From positions 590,049 through 654,048 of the forward strand of contig NZ_BLJA01000001.1 in the NCBI RefSeq assembly GCF_019972295.1: a stretch of 64,000 nucleotides of DNA, given 5' to 3'. The notes under the pieces were generated by a model. The model saw only the letters and a list, made by a program, of their open reading frames with translations. It ran no database searches and was not told the DNA's origin. The stretch comes from Geobacter sp. AOG2. Its GTDB lineage: Bacteria; Desulfobacterota; Desulfuromonadia; Geobacterales; Pseudopelobacteraceae. How positions within the stretch are numbered: the stretch's first letter is position 1; each line of letters starts with the position of its first letter. Positions 4,087 through 55,373 of this stretch are shown here, piece after piece. The translations under genes and the position numbers were made by a program.

Positions 4087-5715
4087 ATGTCGGTCCACAA
4101 GAACGCCCGCGTAGGAACAAAGCTTTTTGCCGGGTTCCTGTTTCTGGCCGTTATCGCCACGGCGGTGAATGTGGTGAACGCGTTGCGGCTGGCGCACATC
4201 AAAGGGATGCAGCAGCAACTGTACGCGCAGGATATCAAGCCGATGAAAGAGCTGGTCGATCTGACCGAGGCGTTCCAGAAGATGAGGGTGGCCACCCGCG
4301 ACGTCACCATAGCGCAAACCCCGGAAGCCAGGCAGAAGGGAAGCGCTCTGCGCAAAGAGAGTTTCAGGGCCGCAAACGAGGCCTTGATCGCGATTGCCGC
4401 CAGTTCCGGCGAATCGAGGGCCGCCGCGGACGAACTGCGGAAATCCATCACCCGGTACAATGCCATCCTCGACACGATCTACGAGATGATTGTCGCCGGC
4501 AAGGCCGCCGAGGCGGACGCCTTCGGCAGGACCCCCGAGGTTGCCGCCACCGTCAAGGCCAGCACCGAGCAGCTCAAGGCGCTGACTGCCGCCAAGATCG
4601 CCCACGGCAACAAGAACACCGAGGCGGCCATCGCCATCACCGATTCCTCGTTGATCCTGTCGGTGGTCTGCACCGTGGTCATGCTGGCGATTGCCTTCGT
4701 GTTCGGCATGGTGAGCACCCGCTTGATCACCCGGCCGGTCCACAGCCTGGTGCAACAGGCGGAAAAGATCGCCGCCGGCGACCTTACGGTGAAGATCGAG
4801 CAGGAATCCCGGGATGAGATCGGCGTATTGGCCGGCTCCTTCGCCAAGATGGCCGAAAACCTGCGCGATACCCTGGGGAGGGTCAAGGCCACCTCGGACC
4901 AGGTGGCGACCGCTTCCAACCAGCTCCAGTCCACATCGGAGCAGATCGCCACCGGGGCCGAAGAGGTCTCCGGCCAGGCACAGACCGTGGCCACCGCCAG
5001 TGAAGAGTTGTCGGCCACCTCCGGCGATATCGCCCAGAACTGTCATGCTGCGGCCCAAAGCTCCCGGCAGGCGACCGGTGCCGCCCAGACCGGCGCCGAG
5101 GTCGTGGCGCAGACGGTCAGCGTCATGACCCGCATCGCCGAGCGGGTCAACGCAACGGCCCGGAGCGTCGAGGGGCTTGGAACCCGTTCGGACCAGATCG
5201 GCACCATCGTCGGCACCATCGAGGATATTGCGGACCAGACCAACCTCCTGGCCCTGAACGCGGCGATCGAGGCGGCCCGGGCCGGCGAACAGGGGCGGGG
5301 GTTTGCGGTGGTCGCCGATGAGGTGCGGGCTTTGGCCGAGCGCACCACCAAGGCGACCAAGGAGATCGGCGCCATGATCAAGGCGATCCAGACGGAAACC
5401 AAGGGGGCCGTTTCCGCGATGGAAGAGGGGGTCAGGGAGGTTCGCCAGGGTACGGAAGAGGCGGCGAAATCCGGCGGGGCCATTCAGGAGATCCTTCACC
5501 AGATAGACGCGGTCTCCATGCAGGTGAACCAGATCGCGACGGCGGCCGAGGAACAGTCGGCGACGACCACCGAGATCACCAGCAACATCCACCGGATTTC
5601 CGGCGTGGTCCATCAGACGGCCCAGGGTTCCCAGAAATCCGCCGCCGCCGCGGCGCAGCTCGCCAGGCTGTCGGATGATCTCCACTCCCTGGTCGAACAA
5701 TTCAAGTTGGCCTGA
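4087..5715 (+). CDS. Methyl-accepting chemotaxis protein
   Basis: A 542-residue transmembrane chemoreceptor. Segment 1 lies at about 12-34, a periplasmic four-helix-bundle-like sensor at 35-185, segment 2 at about 187-212, a HAMP domain follows ([12 protein letters not shown], then [16 protein letters not shown]), and the cytoplasmic signalling hairpin carries [19 protein letters not shown] near 379-397 and [18 protein letters not shown], the CheA/CheW contact. The ATG at 4087 is preceded by GGAG; an upstream open frame overlaps the kinase gene and is not used. The 53-base gap suggests joint transcription with the kinase. Ligand unknown. A strong terminator follows at 5821. Confidence 0.95.
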
Positions 5716-5820
5716 TCGGGGGAACGGGTTGTGAACATGCCCGATCCGGCTCCCTGCCGGAAGACGCCGTTTCAAACTTCGGAGTAGCACGGGCTCGATA
5801 ACGAGCCTCCTTCATGTGGT

Positions 5821-49414: not shown

Positions 49415-49597
49415 AGCTGGAAGAGGTACAAAAAGGCATAAGGAGGTTTCAATTCGTATGGAAGACACTCCGCCTGGCTCTTTAACGTAGTATAGCAGCA
49501 CCACATAATCCGATGCAGCACGGATCGGAACTATCCTCGCAAGAGGAACACAGAACCAAAAAAATTCAGAAGCCCACCGATTCCCTGGTGGGCTTTT
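49415..49597 (+). ncRNA. Candidate small RNA or attenuated leader
   Basis: A promoter-like TATAGT at 49403-49408 and a terminator at 49571 define a possible transcript of about 180 bases. Within it AAGGAGG precedes a ten-codon frame, MEDTPPGSLT, and the inverted sequence CTATCCTCGCAAGAGG. Because the terminator stands 30 bases before the kinase gene, it could be either a free small RNA or a leader that controls that gene. I cannot match it to a known RNA family. Confidence 0.35.
49571..49597 (+). terminator. Rho-independent terminator ahead of the small kinase gene
   Basis: AGCCCACC and GGTGGGCT pair across eight bases, followed by a T-rich stretch (TTTTCCTTTT). Confidence 0.8.
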
Positions 49598-49628: not shown

Positions 49629-50081
49629 ATGAACGCCATCATCCTCATCGGCATACCGGCCAGCGGCAAGAGCACCTTCTACCGGCAGCGGTTCTTCTTC
49701 ACCCATATGCGCATCAGCCTGGACATGCTCAAGACCCGCCACCGGGAAAGGCTCCTGGTGGAGGCCTGCCTGGCGGCCCGCCAACCCTTTGTGGTGGACA
49801 ACACCAATGCCAGCCCCCAGGAGCGCGCCCGCTTCATCGGCCCGGCCCGGCAGGCCGGGTTCCGGGTGGTCGGCTATTATCTCGACTCCACGGTGGCGGA
49901 TGCGCTGGAACGCAACCGGCAGCGACAGGGCACGGGCCGGATACCGGACAAGGGGGTGGCCGGGGTCGCGGCGCGGCTGGAATTGCCGACCTTGGGGGAG
50001 GGGTTCGATGAGTTGCGGTACGTGCGGATGGATGGGGAGGGCGGGTTTGTGGTGGAGGAGTGGCGGGATTTGCAGCGTTGA
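49629..50081 (+). CDS. P-loop kinase/AAA-type ATPase, small
   Basis: A 150-residue protein with Walker A GIPASGKST at 7-15 and the FVVDNTNASPQERARFI segment seen in polynucleotide-kinase-like P-loop proteins, which phosphorylate nucleic acid ends or small molecules. A lid with paired Arg residues (ERNRQRQGTGRIPDKG) follows. Substrate unknown. ATG 49629 places the P-loop at the usual distance from the N terminus. Confidence 0.8.
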   Translation: MNAIILIGIPASGKSTFYRQRFFFTHMRISLDMLKTRHRERLLVEACLAARQPFVVDNTNASPQERARFIGPARQAGFRVVGYYLDSTVADALERNRQRQGTGRIPDKGVAGVAARLELPTLGEGFDELRYVRMDGEGGFVVEEWRDLQR

Positions 50082-50261: not shown

Positions 50262-50291
50262 CTTACAGTAAGTTATGTGATCTGATACGTT
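50262..50291 (+). promoter_or_regulatory. Promoter with palindrome upstream of the SmaI-like endonuclease
   Basis: TTACAG (50263-50268), 17 bases, TACGTT (50286-50291). CTTACAGTAAG (50262-50272), a 5-bp inverted repeat around one base, covers the -35 box and resembles the TTACC/GGTAA sites before the RHH gene at 52163. Confidence 0.45.
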
Positions 50292-50339
50292 AACGGTACG
50301 ATACTCAATGCAAAATCATACTTACTAGGAAAGAAAAAT

Positions 50340-51113
50340 ATGACGCGTAGAGAACGAATCGAGCGGTTAATAAAGGCAATTCCGGATTTGAGTAATTATC
50401 GTTTAGAGCTAGTAGATCGCATTGTTGCTGTTTTTTCACAACCATGGGAATTGGCGTGTGATCCAACCTCTGATATTATTTCAGAGACCTCTCTCGCTGA
50501 TTTCGGGGATGTTTTGCGCCTTCATCATTGTTTTTCAAGAGAACCTTTCTCAAAGGATAAATTCGAGTTTGCCCTTGAAATGGTCCTCCAAGCCTCTGGG
50601 AAAGATGCCCGATTGGCTCCAAGAGGAACGCGTGGATATGACATCGAAATTTCAGGTCATAAAGTATCTCTAAAAACCGAAGCGGCCAAAGCAATCCGAC
50701 AAGAATTAATTCACATCTCAAAATTTATGGAACTTGGCGGTGGACAGTGGGGCGATAGCCCCAATGATCTCGTCGGCCTGAGACAACAGTTTCTTGGAAA
50801 TCTCGCCGGAATAGAGCGCATATTAGTGTTGCGTGCCCTAAAAAAAGGGGCACCAGATTATTTGTACGAACTTGTTGAAATACCAAAGGCTTTGCTTGAA
50901 TTGGCAAATCAGGGACGTTTAGAAATGCGGTTGGAGAGTAAGCAGCACCCGAAACCGGGATACTGCTACGTAGAACGTGATAACGAGACTCTATACAGCC
51001 TTTATTTCGATGGTGGTGGGGAGCGAAAACTGCAAATCAAGTCGCTACGGAAGGATTTGTGCAGAATTCATGCAACTTGGCGTTTCGATGTGGAGTTTCA
51101 AGAACAGGCATAA
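50340..51113 (+). CDS. Type II restriction endonuclease, SmaI-like
   Basis: The 257-residue product matches my recollection of SmaI along its length: GYDIEISGHKVSLKTEAAK with Asp101, Lys112 and Glu114 as likely catalytic residues of a PD-(D/E)XK fold, HISKFMELGGGQW, YELVEIPKALLE, ESKQHPKPGYCYV and SLYFDGGGERKLQIKSL. It should cut CCCGGG. The DNA is clearly more AT-rich than its surroundings, a sign of transfer. AGGAAAG precedes the ATG. Its 3' end overlaps the convergent methyltransferase gene by 77 bases. Confidence 0.85.
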   Translation: MTRRERIERLIKAIPDLSNYRLELVDRIVAVFSQPWELACDPTSDIISETSLADFGDVLRLHHCFSREPFSKDKFEFALEMVLQASGKDARLAPRGTRGYDIEISGHKVSLKTEAAKAIRQELIHISKFMELGGGQWGDSPNDLVGLRQQFLGNLAGIERILVLRALKKGAPDYLYELVEIPKALLELANQGRLEMRLESKQHPKPGYCYVERDNETLYSLYFDGGGERKLQIKSLRKDLCRIHATWRFDVEFQEQA

Positions 51114-51954
51114 GAGGTGGCGTGACAGAGAACAGACGTTGGCGGGCAATGTCAACGTATTCTGTTTTTAATTCTACACCGACGCATTGACGGCCTGTCT
51201 CAATTGCTACAACACCCACAGTACCGCTTCCGAAAAATGGATCAAGTACAGTGCCGCCTACCGGAGAACCGGCTAAAATGCAAGGACGAACGAGTGCACG
51301 CGGGAATACGGCAAAATGAGCTTCCTTGCACGGCTCTGTATTGATGCTCCAAATTGACCGCTTATTTTTTCGGGTTTTCCCGTCTGCAGTTGGCTCCTTT
51401 ATAGCGTCTTGATTGAAGTAGTATACTTCGTTCTTTGATAGCATGAACAGATATTCGTGCGCCATTGTTACCCTGTCTTTTACCGATTCGGGCTGGCAAT
51501 TTGGCTTGTGCCAGATAATGTCGGAGCGTAGATACCAGCCATCAAGTTGCAAGGCCATTGCAAGCATCCAGGCTACACCGATCAAGTCTTTAGGTTTAAG
51601 ACCCTCTGGTGTGTCAGGGCGGAATGACATGGCCCGGCCTGCATTTTTGGAGTCGGATTGACGCCAAGTTCTTCCGCCGGAAGTGTAGGTATTACCGATA
51701 TTGAGCCAAAGCGTGCCGTCACCTCTCAGGACACGCCGCACATCGCGAAAGATGGTAACCAAGTCCCTAATATAATCCTGAATCGTTGCTTCAGCGCCGA
51801 TTTGCCCTTCGTAACCATAGTCGCGCATACCCCAATAAGGGGGAGAGGTGATGCAGCAATCAAAAAAGTTGTCGGGGAGGTGTGATAGTTCCTGGCGGAT
51901 GTCACCATGGATAATTCGAACCGGCTCATTATCAAAATGTGTTGCAGCAGTCAT
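51037..51954 (-). CDS. DNA methyltransferase, N4-cytosine type
   Basis: The 305-residue partner of the endonuclease. The catalytic motif TSPPYWG comes first (about 36-42) and the SAM motif DPFFGSGTVG later (about 236-245), the beta-class order; SPPY points to N4-cytosine methylation, as in SmaI/Cfr9I-type systems. It protects CCCGGG by inference. Its ATG overlaps the stop of the RHH gene upstream (ATGA), so both are made from one transcript. Confidence 0.88.
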   Translation of the reverse strand: MTAATHFDNEPVRIIHGDIRQELSHLPDNFFDCCITSPPYWGMRDYGYEGQIGAEATIQDYIRDLVTIFRDVRRVLRGDGTLWLNIGNTYTSGGRTWRQSDSKNAGRAMSFRPDTPEGLKPKDLIGVAWMLAMALQLDGWYLRSDIIWHKPNCQPESVKDRVTMAHEYLFMLSKNEVYYFNQDAIKEPTADGKTRKNKRSIWSINTEPCKEAHFAVFPRALVRPCILAGSPVGGTVLDPFFGSGTVGVVAIETGRQCVGVELKTEYVDIARQRLFSVTPPLMPVLETPHRNAKLHEFCTNPSVAT

Positions 51955-52163
51955 GATTCTTCTCTCGATCGTGATGTGTCGGACGCGTTTTGGGGGGAAT
52001 AGCTAGAAGAATTCTCATGCACTCGTGCATTAAGCGTATCAATAATGTAGGCATGTAGGGTCATGTCGCATTCCAAAGCCTTAAATTTCAGTGCTTTGTG
52101 CAGTTTCTCCTCGATTTCAAGAGGGAAAGTTTTTTTTCTTTTTGTTTCTTGTGAATGCATCAT
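51951..52163 (-). CDS. RHH-like small controller protein of the R-M system
   Basis: A 70-residue basic protein. TFPLEIEEKLHKALKFKALE followed by LHAYIIDTLNARV fits a ribbon-helix-helix (Arc/CopG) domain; the tail is Ser/Asn-rich. It precedes and overlaps the methyltransferase gene. The promoter puts the transcript start at the ATG, so it is probably leaderless. It likely represses its own promoter, taking the place of the HTH C-protein common in R-M systems. Either of two adjacent ATG codons (52163, 52160) may be used. Confidence 0.7.
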   Translation of the reverse strand: MMHSQETKRKKTFPLEIEEKLHKALKFKALECDMTLHAYIIDTLNARVHENSSSYSPQNASDTSRSREES

Positions 52164-52169
52164 AAGACG

Positions 52170-52198
52170 AGGTTACCTAAGTTACCTTGGTAAGTCAA
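52170..52198 (-). promoter_or_regulatory. Promoter with overlapping operators for the RHH-methyltransferase genes
   Basis: On the minus strand TTGACT (52198-52193), 17 bases, TAACCT (52175-52170). The spacer holds TTACCTTGGTAA (52182-52193, a palindrome), and GGTTACC (52171-52177) covers the -10. The start point predicted 6-8 bases downstream coincides with the ATG. Confidence 0.6.
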
Positions 52199-52478: not shown

Positions 52479-53063
52479 ATGGAAAAGAACCGACTGGAAG
52501 CCTTTAGCGATGGCGTGATCGCCATCATCATCACCATCATGGTCCTGGAGATGAAGGTGCCCCACGGCTCCGAACTCTCCGCCCTTTTGCCGGTCCTGCC
52601 GGTATTCCTCAGCTATCTCCTCAGCTTCGTCTACATCGGCATCTACTGGAACAACCACCACCACATGCTGCACACGGTCCGCCGCGTGACCGGCGGCATC
52701 CTCTGGGCCAACCTGCATCTGCTCTTCTGGCTCTCCCTGTTCCCCTTCGCCACCGGCTGGATCGGCACCAACCATTTCACTTCCGCTCCCCTGGCGCTCT
52801 ACGGGGCGGTGCTGCTTCTGGCGTCCATTGCCTACTTTATCCTGCAACAGACGATCATCGCCAGCCAGGGACCGGATTCGATCCTGAAAAAGGCCGTGGG
52901 CCGGGACGTGAAGGGGAAGGTGTCCCCCATCCTTTATGCCGCCGCCATCCCGGCGTCGTTCTACGAACCCCGGATCGCCAACGCCATCTACGTGTTCGTG
53001 GCGTTGATGTGGCTGGTGCCGGACCGGCGTATCGAGCGGGCATTGCGGGCAGCGGCCCCCTAG
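52479..53063 (+). CDS. DUF1211/TMEM175-like membrane protein
   Basis: A 194-residue membrane protein with about six hydrophobic segments. The first carries EAFSDGVIAIIITIMVLE, the FSDG motif that lines the pore in the TMEM175 potassium-channel family, and YWNNHHHMLH lies after the second helix pair. Ion conduction is inferred. Repeat copy G starts two bases after the stop. Confidence 0.87.
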   Translation: MEKNRLEAFSDGVIAIIITIMVLEMKVPHGSELSALLPVLPVFLSYLLSFVYIGIYWNNHHHMLHTVRRVTGGILWANLHLLFWLSLFPFATGWIGTNHFTSAPLALYGAVLLLASIAYFILQQTIIASQGPDSILKKAVGRDVKGKVSPILYAAAIPASFYEPRIANAIYVFVALMWLVPDRRIERALRAAAP

Positions 53064-54565: not shown

Positions 54566-54745
54566 ATGAAAAAGGATGCTACGGAAAAAACGCTCTCCGC
54601 TCTTTCGAAAAAGGTGGGTCAGTCGGTACGCTCCGAGGCCAAATCGGTCAAAAAGTCGTTGCTAGCCAGTTTTCGCAAGGAAATGTCCCATGCCAAGACG
54701 GATGCCAGAACCATTGTCGGCCGAAAATCCACCGGAAAAGCCTAA
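54566..54745 (+). CDS. Putative antitoxin of the zeta-type module
   Basis: A 59-residue Lys/Ser-rich helical protein (MKKDATEKTLSALSKKVG, KSVKKSLLASFRKEM) with no recognised family. GGAGAAGG precedes the ATG. It overlaps the start of the toxin gene by 56 bases, the tight coupling expected of an antitoxin. It does not resemble the classical epsilon antitoxin. Confidence 0.65.
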   Translation: MKKDATEKTLSALSKKVGQSVRSEAKSVKKSLLASFRKEMSHAKTDARTIVGRKSTGKA

Positions 54746-55373
54746 GCTCCTGGTGATCGCCGGGCCGAACGGCTCCGGGAAAACCACCTTTACCAAACAG
54801 TTGCTGGGGCATCACTGGTCGGACGATTGCGTGTTCATCAATCCGGATATCATTGCCGAACGGGAATTCGGAGGATGGAACGACCAAGCGTCGATACTGA
54901 AGGCTGCCGACCGTGCCGCCGAACTGCGTGAGGAGTGTCTGCGCACAAGGACAAGTATGGTGGTGGAAACCGTTCTTTCGATGGAAGATAAGGTCGATTT
55001 TTTGCGGCGCGCCCAGGAGAATGGTTTTTTTGTGCGCGTCTTTTTCATTGGCACGGATACGCCGGAGATCAACGCAGCCAGGGTTACCCGCCGGATGATC
55101 GAAGGGGGGCACGAAGTACCCATTAACAAGATCCTTGCGAGATATTTCAGATCCATGCGCCTTTGTGTTTCGGCGGGTCTTATCTCAGACCGGTTGTACG
55201 TCCATGACAACTCTTTTGACGGCGAAAATCCGGTACTGCTGTTCAGAAAGCATGATGGAGAGTTCTACAAAACGTATCCGGGCCTGAATAAACACTGGTG
55301 GGCCGAGGAGATTTTCCGGGAGCTGCGGAAACTCAAAAAACTGGAGACGGTTTCAAGTGCCAGCGATAATTGA
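54690..55373 (+). CDS. Zeta-toxin-like kinase
   Basis: A 227-residue P-loop protein: Walker A GPNGSGKTT at 25-33, FINPDIIAEREFGG, TSMVVETVLSMEDKVDFL, and the Arg-rich VTRRMIEGGHEVP lid. Zeta toxins phosphorylate UDP-N-acetylglucosamine and poison wall synthesis; chromosomal relatives of this size are common. ATG 54690 has AAGGAA seven bases upstream; ATG 54702 is possible. Confidence 0.85.
   Translation: MPRRMPEPLSAENPPEKPKLLVIAGPNGSGKTTFTKQLLGHHWSDDCVFINPDIIAEREFGGWNDQASILKAADRAAELREECLRTRTSMVVETVLSMEDKVDFLRRAQENGFFVRVFFIGTDTPEINAARVTRRMIEGGHEVPINKILARYFRSMRLCVSAGLISDRLYVHDNSFDGENPVLLFRKHDGEFYKTYPGLNKHWWAEEIFRELRKLKKLETVSSASDN

Follow-up and report, generated by a model that had tools for sequence, protein, structure and literature searches.

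A putative ribbon-helix-helix autorepressor gene coupled to the methyltransferase gene of a SmaI-family restriction-modification system in Geobacter sp. AOG2

A type II restriction-modification system of the SmaI family in Geobacter sp. AOG2 is probably controlled by a ribbon-helix-helix (RHH) autorepressor, encoded by the first gene of a methyltransferase operon whose transcript is predicted to be leaderless or nearly leaderless. The system lies within a 64,000-nucleotide stretch of the genome that was analyzed as a whole (hereafter the window) and comprises three genes:

50340–51113, plus strand: SmaI-family type II restriction endonuclease gene (257 aa; Pfam SmaI PF17411, PADLOC REase_II)
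51037–51954, minus strand: DNA methyltransferase gene (305 aa; N6_N4_Mtase, TSPPY motif; PADLOC MTase_II)
51951–52163, minus strand: gene for the 70-aa RHH regulator, its stop codon sharing the sequence ATGA with the methyltransferase start

The endonuclease and methyltransferase genes are convergent, and their 3′ ends overlap by 77 bp. The G+C content of 500-base windows between positions 50000 and 52499 is 41–51%, below the 57.5% of a 464-kb genome sample that includes the window, and the SmaI-like region therefore looks acquired. None of the 11 families of direct repeats around the insert was judged to bracket the restriction system. Within the genus no empty site was readable, as G001 has the left flanking gene and G003 the right one (each in two of six genomes, the system's own included).

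Enzymes and regulator of the Geobacter locus

An earlier note on this DNA had described the endonuclease as SmaI-like, and the protein indeed matches Pfam SmaI (PF17411) along its full length, from position 3 to 240 of the 240-position profile over residues 12–249, with an E value of 3.2e-77 and 259.7 bits against a curated cut-off of 27.3. It also matches PADLOC REase_II at 1.4e-81, and its homologs in other genomes share 45–75% identity. The hexamer CCCGGG occurs in 464 kb of the genome at 0.53 of its expected frequency, ranking 9th of 64 palindromes, a weak avoidance that is at most suggestive of CCCGGG cutting.

The methyltransferase matches Pfam N6_N4_Mtase (6e-54) and PADLOC MTase_II (1.7e-135). 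Its translation contains, by direct reading, TSPPYW followed by DPFFGSGT, which we take to be motif IV (SPPY) and motif I (FxGxG), respectively. SPPY is the usual form in N4-cytosine methyltransferases, and the enzyme is probably an N4-cytosine methyltransferase of the beta class. The family match and the TSPPYW motif thus uphold part of the earlier assignment to this type, the methylated base being only probable by motif; the nearest solved sequence is that of CcrM, an adenine enzyme, so homology does not settle the base.

Assignment of the 70-aa protein to the RHH class, proposed earlier as an Arc/CopG-like repressor, is well supported by the sum of the sequence and model evidence, no single score sufficing. 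We aligned 13 of the 16 RHH proteins identified in this work (alignment A1), leaving out that of L005, with two N in its gene, and those of the later finds L038 and L046. All 13 match Pfam HicB and nine match RHH_10, weakly (E up to 0.1), and the window protein alone scores 17.5, under the gathering cut-off of 21. The alignment has 15 invariant columns, including KTFP (residues 11–14) and LHK. No helix-turn-helix (HTH) family was detected in the 70-aa protein at E up to 1 in Pfam and NCBIfam. A comparison with the sequences of solved structures gave nothing convincing, the best RHH chain being 9kkd at E 0.038.

Structure prediction of the 70-residue monomer, which the earlier note had proposed as a check, gave two confident helices that fit an RHH protein (residues 15–31 and 36–54, pLDDT about 90; mean pLDDT 71.3, pTM 0.45) and left the N-terminal strand unformed. 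In RHH proteins the strand forms only in the dimer, and the invariant KTFP sits at the expected strand place of the fold. A Foldseek search with the model returned no significant match (best E 3.1), and its matches are insignificant alone; 23 of the 30 are RHH proteins, as judged by reading. In a second structural comparison, rows 1–15 are RHH proteins by reading, with Z scores of 2.9–4.5, and homeodomains score lower, at 2.5 or less.

Loci carrying the regulator gene and their promoter

A pattern-based scan for the endonuclease in the species-genome collection yielded 21 loci, 13 of which (L003–L015) carry the RHH gene upstream of the methyltransferase gene. The genomes behind 20 of the 21 loci (without L005) were searched for the RHH gene; 13 were positive, adding a locus on another contig of the L016 genome (L038), and seven were negative at E 0.001, those of L002 and L017–L022. 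The missing gene in L002 says little, because that contig ends inside the methyltransferase gene. A further RHH locus, L046, came from a phylum search. The total is 16 distinct RHH loci, the window included, from at least four phyla; repeats of other loci, recognized by place and identity, were left uncounted (L001, L028–L037, L039–L044, L073, L076, and L078–L080). The recorded hosts are Geobacter, other Desulfuromonadales or Deltaproteobacteria, Syntrophaceae, Nitrospira and other Nitrospirae, Acidobacteria, Verrucomicrobiota, and Akkermansiaceae, together with two metagenome bins, a gammaproteobacterium and Blastochloris.

Searches with the regulator profile gave matches in 3 of 57 relatives, 4 of 277 class genomes (overlapping the 57), 5 of 295, 1 of 337, and 2 of 347 genomes, counts that include the own or starting genomes. 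Every strong match (at least 95 bits) in six genome searches adjoins a SmaI-type methyltransferase gene; at L038 the contig ends before an endonuclease gene could follow. The overlap between the RHH stop codon and the methyltransferase start reads ATGA or GTGA in 15 of the 16 loci and TAATG in L038, and the methyltransferase frame is open in all of them. The RHH protein had no match in plasmids or phages, nor did the RHH alignment in viral contigs; the endonuclease likewise had none in phages or viral contigs and matched eight plasmid records, all below 60% identity.

It is very improbable that the small gene is a leftover antitoxin-type RHH gene or some other passenger without a role in restriction. 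Several of the matched families are antitoxins by name (HicB, Antitox_RHH, and CopG_antitoxin), and of the three weak RHH matches, L045, L047, and L048, none of which has an endonuclease or methyltransferase match nearby, L047 adjoins an integrase and L048 a PIN-type protein (by reading). Against this stand the linkage to SmaI-type loci over several phyla, the conserved overlap with the methyltransferase start, and the number of invariant columns among the 13 aligned sequences; moreover, by reading, no toxin gene adjoins the RHH gene in the window.

Upstream of the regulator gene in the window, the following promoter elements and predicted operators were recognized:

52193–52198, minus strand: −35 box TTGACT of the promoter shared by the regulator and methyltransferase genes, found in all 16 RHH loci
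52182–52193, minus strand: predicted operator dyad 1, TTACCAAGGTAA, with half-sites on a 9-bp lattice
52173–52184, minus strand: predicted operator dyad 2, TAACTTAGGTAA, its center 9 bp downstream of that of dyad 1
52170–52175, minus strand: −10-like box TAACCT, 17 bp from the −35 box and ending 6 nt before the ATG, with a predicted leaderless start

In the window, TTGACT, a 17-bp spacer, and TAACCT predict that transcription begins at the A of the ATG at 52163 or next to it, as the earlier note had proposed. The same geometry, with a −10-like hexamer ending 6–9 nt before the start codon, was found in 14 of 14 loci, and by reading the distance is 9 nt in L038 and L046; with this placement in 16 loci, the transcript is probably leaderless or nearly so. 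The −10-like hexamers are poor (TAACCT, 3 of 6 positions by direct reading, TAACTT, TTACTT, and similar), which makes the start point of the operon a prediction only, and in L010 and L011 the −10 box fits better at 18-bp spacing.

Across 14 loci, mean information per column, by block, is 1.15–1.84 bits over the promoter, compared with 0.12–0.41 upstream and 0.45 just downstream. TTGACT served as the alignment anchor, so its columns are not evidence, and columns 7–29 are. No conserved block was found in these loci upstream of the −35 box, the place expected of an activator site. The predicted dyads TTACCAAGGTAA and TAACTTAGGTAA fill the −35/−10 interval of the window promoter. Half-sites of the forms TTAC, GTAA, TAAC, and GTTA fall mostly at positions 6, 14/15, and 23/24, and sometimes at 32/33, forming a 9-bp lattice in which the half-sites of cognate sites are separated by 4 nt. 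There are 73 half-sites in the 16 promoters compared with 30.3 (SD 4.7, maximum 47) in 1,000 dinucleotide shuffles, an excess that bears out the earlier description of TTACC/GGTAA-type palindromes in the regulator promoter; in some promoters, above all those of L010 and L011, half-sites fall off the 9-bp register.

A search of both strands of 647,643 bases for the pattern TTGACTTACY-N12-GTWA gave 12 matches, each at the start of an RHH gene, and missed 4 of the 16 loci; of the 15 occurrences of TTGACTTAY alone, 14 are at such starts. As the longer pattern was drawn from the same promoters, this result speaks for specificity and is not an independent discovery. A genome-wide search for a regulon gave no enrichment of the single dyad TTACYNNRGTAA, which occurs at 10 places versus 14 for the reversed control.

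Gene order, together with the conservation of promoter and operators and the fold class, can be read from the sequences themselves; from them we infer that the RHH protein binds and represses, and in what sequence the steps follow one another after entry into a new host. RHH dimers would bind two dyads, and in some relatives perhaps three, 9 bp apart, covering the −35 box, the spacer, and the −10 box, and would thereby block RNA polymerase at the regulator-methyltransferase promoter. Repression by occlusion is suggested by the placing of the sites over these elements and by the lack of anything conserved upstream, and the coupling of the regulator gene to the methyltransferase gene would make the regulated quantity the methyltransferase plus the regulator. 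In a new host, which lacks the RHH protein, the operon would be fully on and methyltransferase would be made at once; accumulating RHH protein would then turn the operon down to a set level.

That the RHH protein is instead an activator, or first an activator and then a repressor like the HTH C proteins, seems to us quite unlikely. As with C.PvuII and AhdI (PMC2997769 and PMC5333194), a type II system here has a dedicated third gene, whose transcript is predicted to be leaderless, and its weak −10 box (direct reading) is of the sort seen in promoters needing help. However, the conserved sites lie between and over the −35 and −10 boxes with none upstream, the gene is coupled to the methyltransferase and not to the endonuclease, and RHH regulators of toxin-antitoxin operons are strict repressors according to PMC3874152.

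Candidate control of the endonuclease

The earlier note had further proposed that a sequence similar to the operators covers the −35 box of the endonuclease and that the RHH protein controls both promoters. The sequence in question is present in the window:

50262–50272, plus strand: CTTACAGTAAG, the site proposed on the endonuclease side, judged here to be a chance palindrome

The half-sites of CTTACAGTAAG are 1 nt apart, as opposed to the 4 nt of cognate sites, and among dinucleotide shuffles of the 140 nt that precede the endonuclease gene, 72% contain one or more palindromes of its grade. The hexamer proposed as the −35 box, TTACAG, agrees with TTGACA at two of six positions by direct reading, and the promoter scan listed none there. 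We also scanned up to 150 nt upstream of 16 endonuclease genes with a leave-one-out operator matrix, using first-order Markov sequences as the null. The best match upstream of the window endonuclease is poor, scoring 4.1 (p 0.34), and cognate operators range from 7.8 to 16.7. Good matches were obtained in 3 of the 16, L003 (9.5, p 0.065), L010 (8.9, p 0.008), and L011 (8.3, p 0.013), and marginal ones in L012 (3.7, p 0.050) and L013 (6.2, p 0.046), giving a combined p of 0.007 over the 16 loci. A minority of the relatives may thus carry an RHH site upstream of the endonuclease gene, and the window shows none.

With these results, the proposed similarity over the endonuclease −35 box is reduced to chance level, and control of both promoters finds no support in the window. 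A dual controller that binds its own promoter and that of the endonuclease and so coordinates the two is an improbable reading more generally. The combined p and the three good sites, whose scores of 8.3–9.5 lie in the range of the weakest cognate sites, speak for it. Yet L010 and L011 are close relatives of each other, L005 and L006 are without a good site although they are, with L003, nearest to the window's methyltransferase, the window scores poorly and its CTTACAGTAAG, with half-sites wrongly spaced, is a chance palindrome, and a repressor absent on entry would not delay the endonuclease.

Under methyltransferase-side autorepression, any delay of the endonuclease would, speculatively, be due to weakness of its promoter or to convergent transcription that leaves the methyltransferase operon while this is unrepressed. 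The latter can be developed along the lines of toxin-antitoxin logic: in this clade, the activator on the endonuclease side would have given way to an RHH autorepressor beside the methyltransferase. Transcription of the RHH-methyltransferase operon, at first unrepressed, would run through the overlapping 3′ ends and restrain the endonuclease, later RHH repression would release it, and a pure repressor would yield the delay that C proteins reach by activation. We put this forward tentatively, as a fairly unlikely extension. No terminator on the methyltransferase strand was listed inside the endonuclease gene (the nearest is at 49595–49570), an absence that proves nothing, so few being expected by chance.

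Other regulators of restriction and descent within the SmaI family

C-protein orthologs have been identified in the SmaI system, according to PMC2997769. The Geobacter system shares with it a homologous endonuclease and a small third regulatory gene, and differs in that an RHH gene stands with the methyltransferase, whereas in the relatives L022 and L024 an HTH_3 gene precedes the endonuclease. In the PvuII and AhdI systems, the C.PvuII-dependent transcripts and the C transcript, respectively, are leaderless (PMC2997769 and PMC5333194). Those systems resemble the present one in convergent layout and in a leaderless regulator transcript and autogenous control (both predicted here); their C gene is cotranscribed with the endonuclease gene and its product activates and then represses, whereas the RHH gene is coupled to the methyltransferase gene and has no visible activator site. 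The 70-aa protein lacks an HTH_3/XRE fold, and its gene overlaps the methyltransferase start on the strand opposite to the endonuclease. By fold and position the regulator is thus not a C protein, and its role is probably alike. The earlier view that the locus departs from the HTH C-protein scheme holds for the fold, for the place beside the methyltransferase, and for the absence of conserved sites ahead of the −35 box, and does not extend to leaderlessness.

The layout has parallels among toxin-antitoxin operons. Omega and PaaR are, according to PMC3874152, strict RHH repressors whose gene precedes the antitoxin gene, unlike C proteins. In omega-epsilon-zeta and paaR-paaA-parE, as here, a separate RHH gene stands before the protective gene and the promoter carries repeated sites for its own regulator (predicted here; same source). 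Formally, endonuclease and methyltransferase make up a toxin-antitoxin pair in which the methyltransferase is the antitoxin; here, in contrast to Omega and PaaR, the endonuclease as counterpart of the toxin is convergent and outside the operon, and the half-site pitch is 9 bp. In Ecl18kI, SsoII, and EcoRII, where the methyltransferase is fused to a repressor domain, a repressor is likewise tied to methyltransferase production (PMC12707154), whereas here the predicted repressor is a separate protein of another fold.

In two reviews, the dedicated regulators of type II systems are HTH C proteins (PMC12707154 and PMC3874152), and among the papers listed in searches of one open-access library we recognized no report of an RHH controller of a type II system. 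If the autorepressor reading is true, a SmaI-type clade over several phyla would show that another circuit can serve to establish these enzymes safely; the need for endonuclease activation in transfer to a new host becomes testable; and restriction systems are tied closer to three-part toxin-antitoxin operons.

The tail-to-tail arrangement is shared by systems with and without the RHH gene, the two genes overlapping by 12–89 bp in 23 of 24 loci. The 24th is L018, with a broken endonuclease frame; it was dropped from the endonuclease alignment (A2) for its in-frame stops, and L005 and L016 were also left out. A 23-row tree of the methyltransferases places the RHH group on one side of a branch, as one change, with low support (70/59); inside the group, members of different phyla come together at forks, as do Syntrophaceae and Nitrospirae at 98/94. 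The simplest reading, though unproven, is a single gain of the RHH gene and its later transfer.

Regulators differ elsewhere in the family. In L022, L024, and the distant L074, whose methyltransferase gene is of another type by reading, a gene matching Pfam HTH_3 at 4e-16 to 1.4e-15 stands in front of the endonuclease gene, the classic C arrangement. Judged from these sequences, both the fold of the regulator and the position of its gene are changed in the RHH loci relative to SmaI relatives with HTH C genes. By eye, the ORF lists of L017, L018, L020, L021, L025–L027, and L075 show no small regulator beside the genes, and in L019 and L023 the sequence ends too near one of the genes for such a reading. 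In L077, a 65-aa HTH_17 gene stands in front of the methyltransferase gene and has, by reading, a promoter with TTGTCA, a 17-bp spacer, and TATATT ending 8 nt before its ATG, a similar near-leaderless geometry that may point to repeated swapping of regulators at the methyltransferase side.

Regulator and endonuclease in related loci

The gene preceding the methyltransferase in L077, a SmaI-family locus in another genome, encodes an HTH_17 protein and represents another regulator type within this enzyme family.

L077 372-569, plus strand: HTH_17 gene (65 aa), 5′ of the methyltransferase of a SmaI-family system

The ATG of this gene lies 8 nt past the end of the promoter −10 box, and the transcript is again predicted to be near-leaderless. 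An operator-like sequence abuts the endonuclease start in a second such locus, L003.

L003 about 115-136, just 5′ of the endonuclease ATG: TTGAGTTAGGTAACTAAATG, operator-like

In the Xanthomonas locus L018, the SmaI-family endonuclease frame (about 5001-5777) contains two stops, whereas its methyltransferase frame is open throughout.

Palindrome depletion in the window genome

The most depleted six-base palindromes in a 464-kb sample of the genome were GGATCC, CAGCTG, CGATCG, and CTCGAG (observed/expected 0.30-0.37); CCCGGG, the site expected for the window's system, was less depleted (0.53).

Genes near the restriction system

A TMEM175-type gene directly adjoins the window's restriction system; a search of five further genomes from the genus found a close homolog of its product in just one. 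A small ORF without a match in a Pfam search and a zeta-toxin-like gene, whose start it overlaps, possibly form a toxin-antitoxin pair (54566-55373).

52479-53063, plus strand: potassium channel family protein, TMEM175-type (Pfam 1.4e-32)
54566-54745: small ORF (59 aa) preceding the zeta-toxin-like gene
54690-55373, plus strand: P-loop protein, zeta-toxin-like (Pfam Zeta_toxin 5.5e-11)
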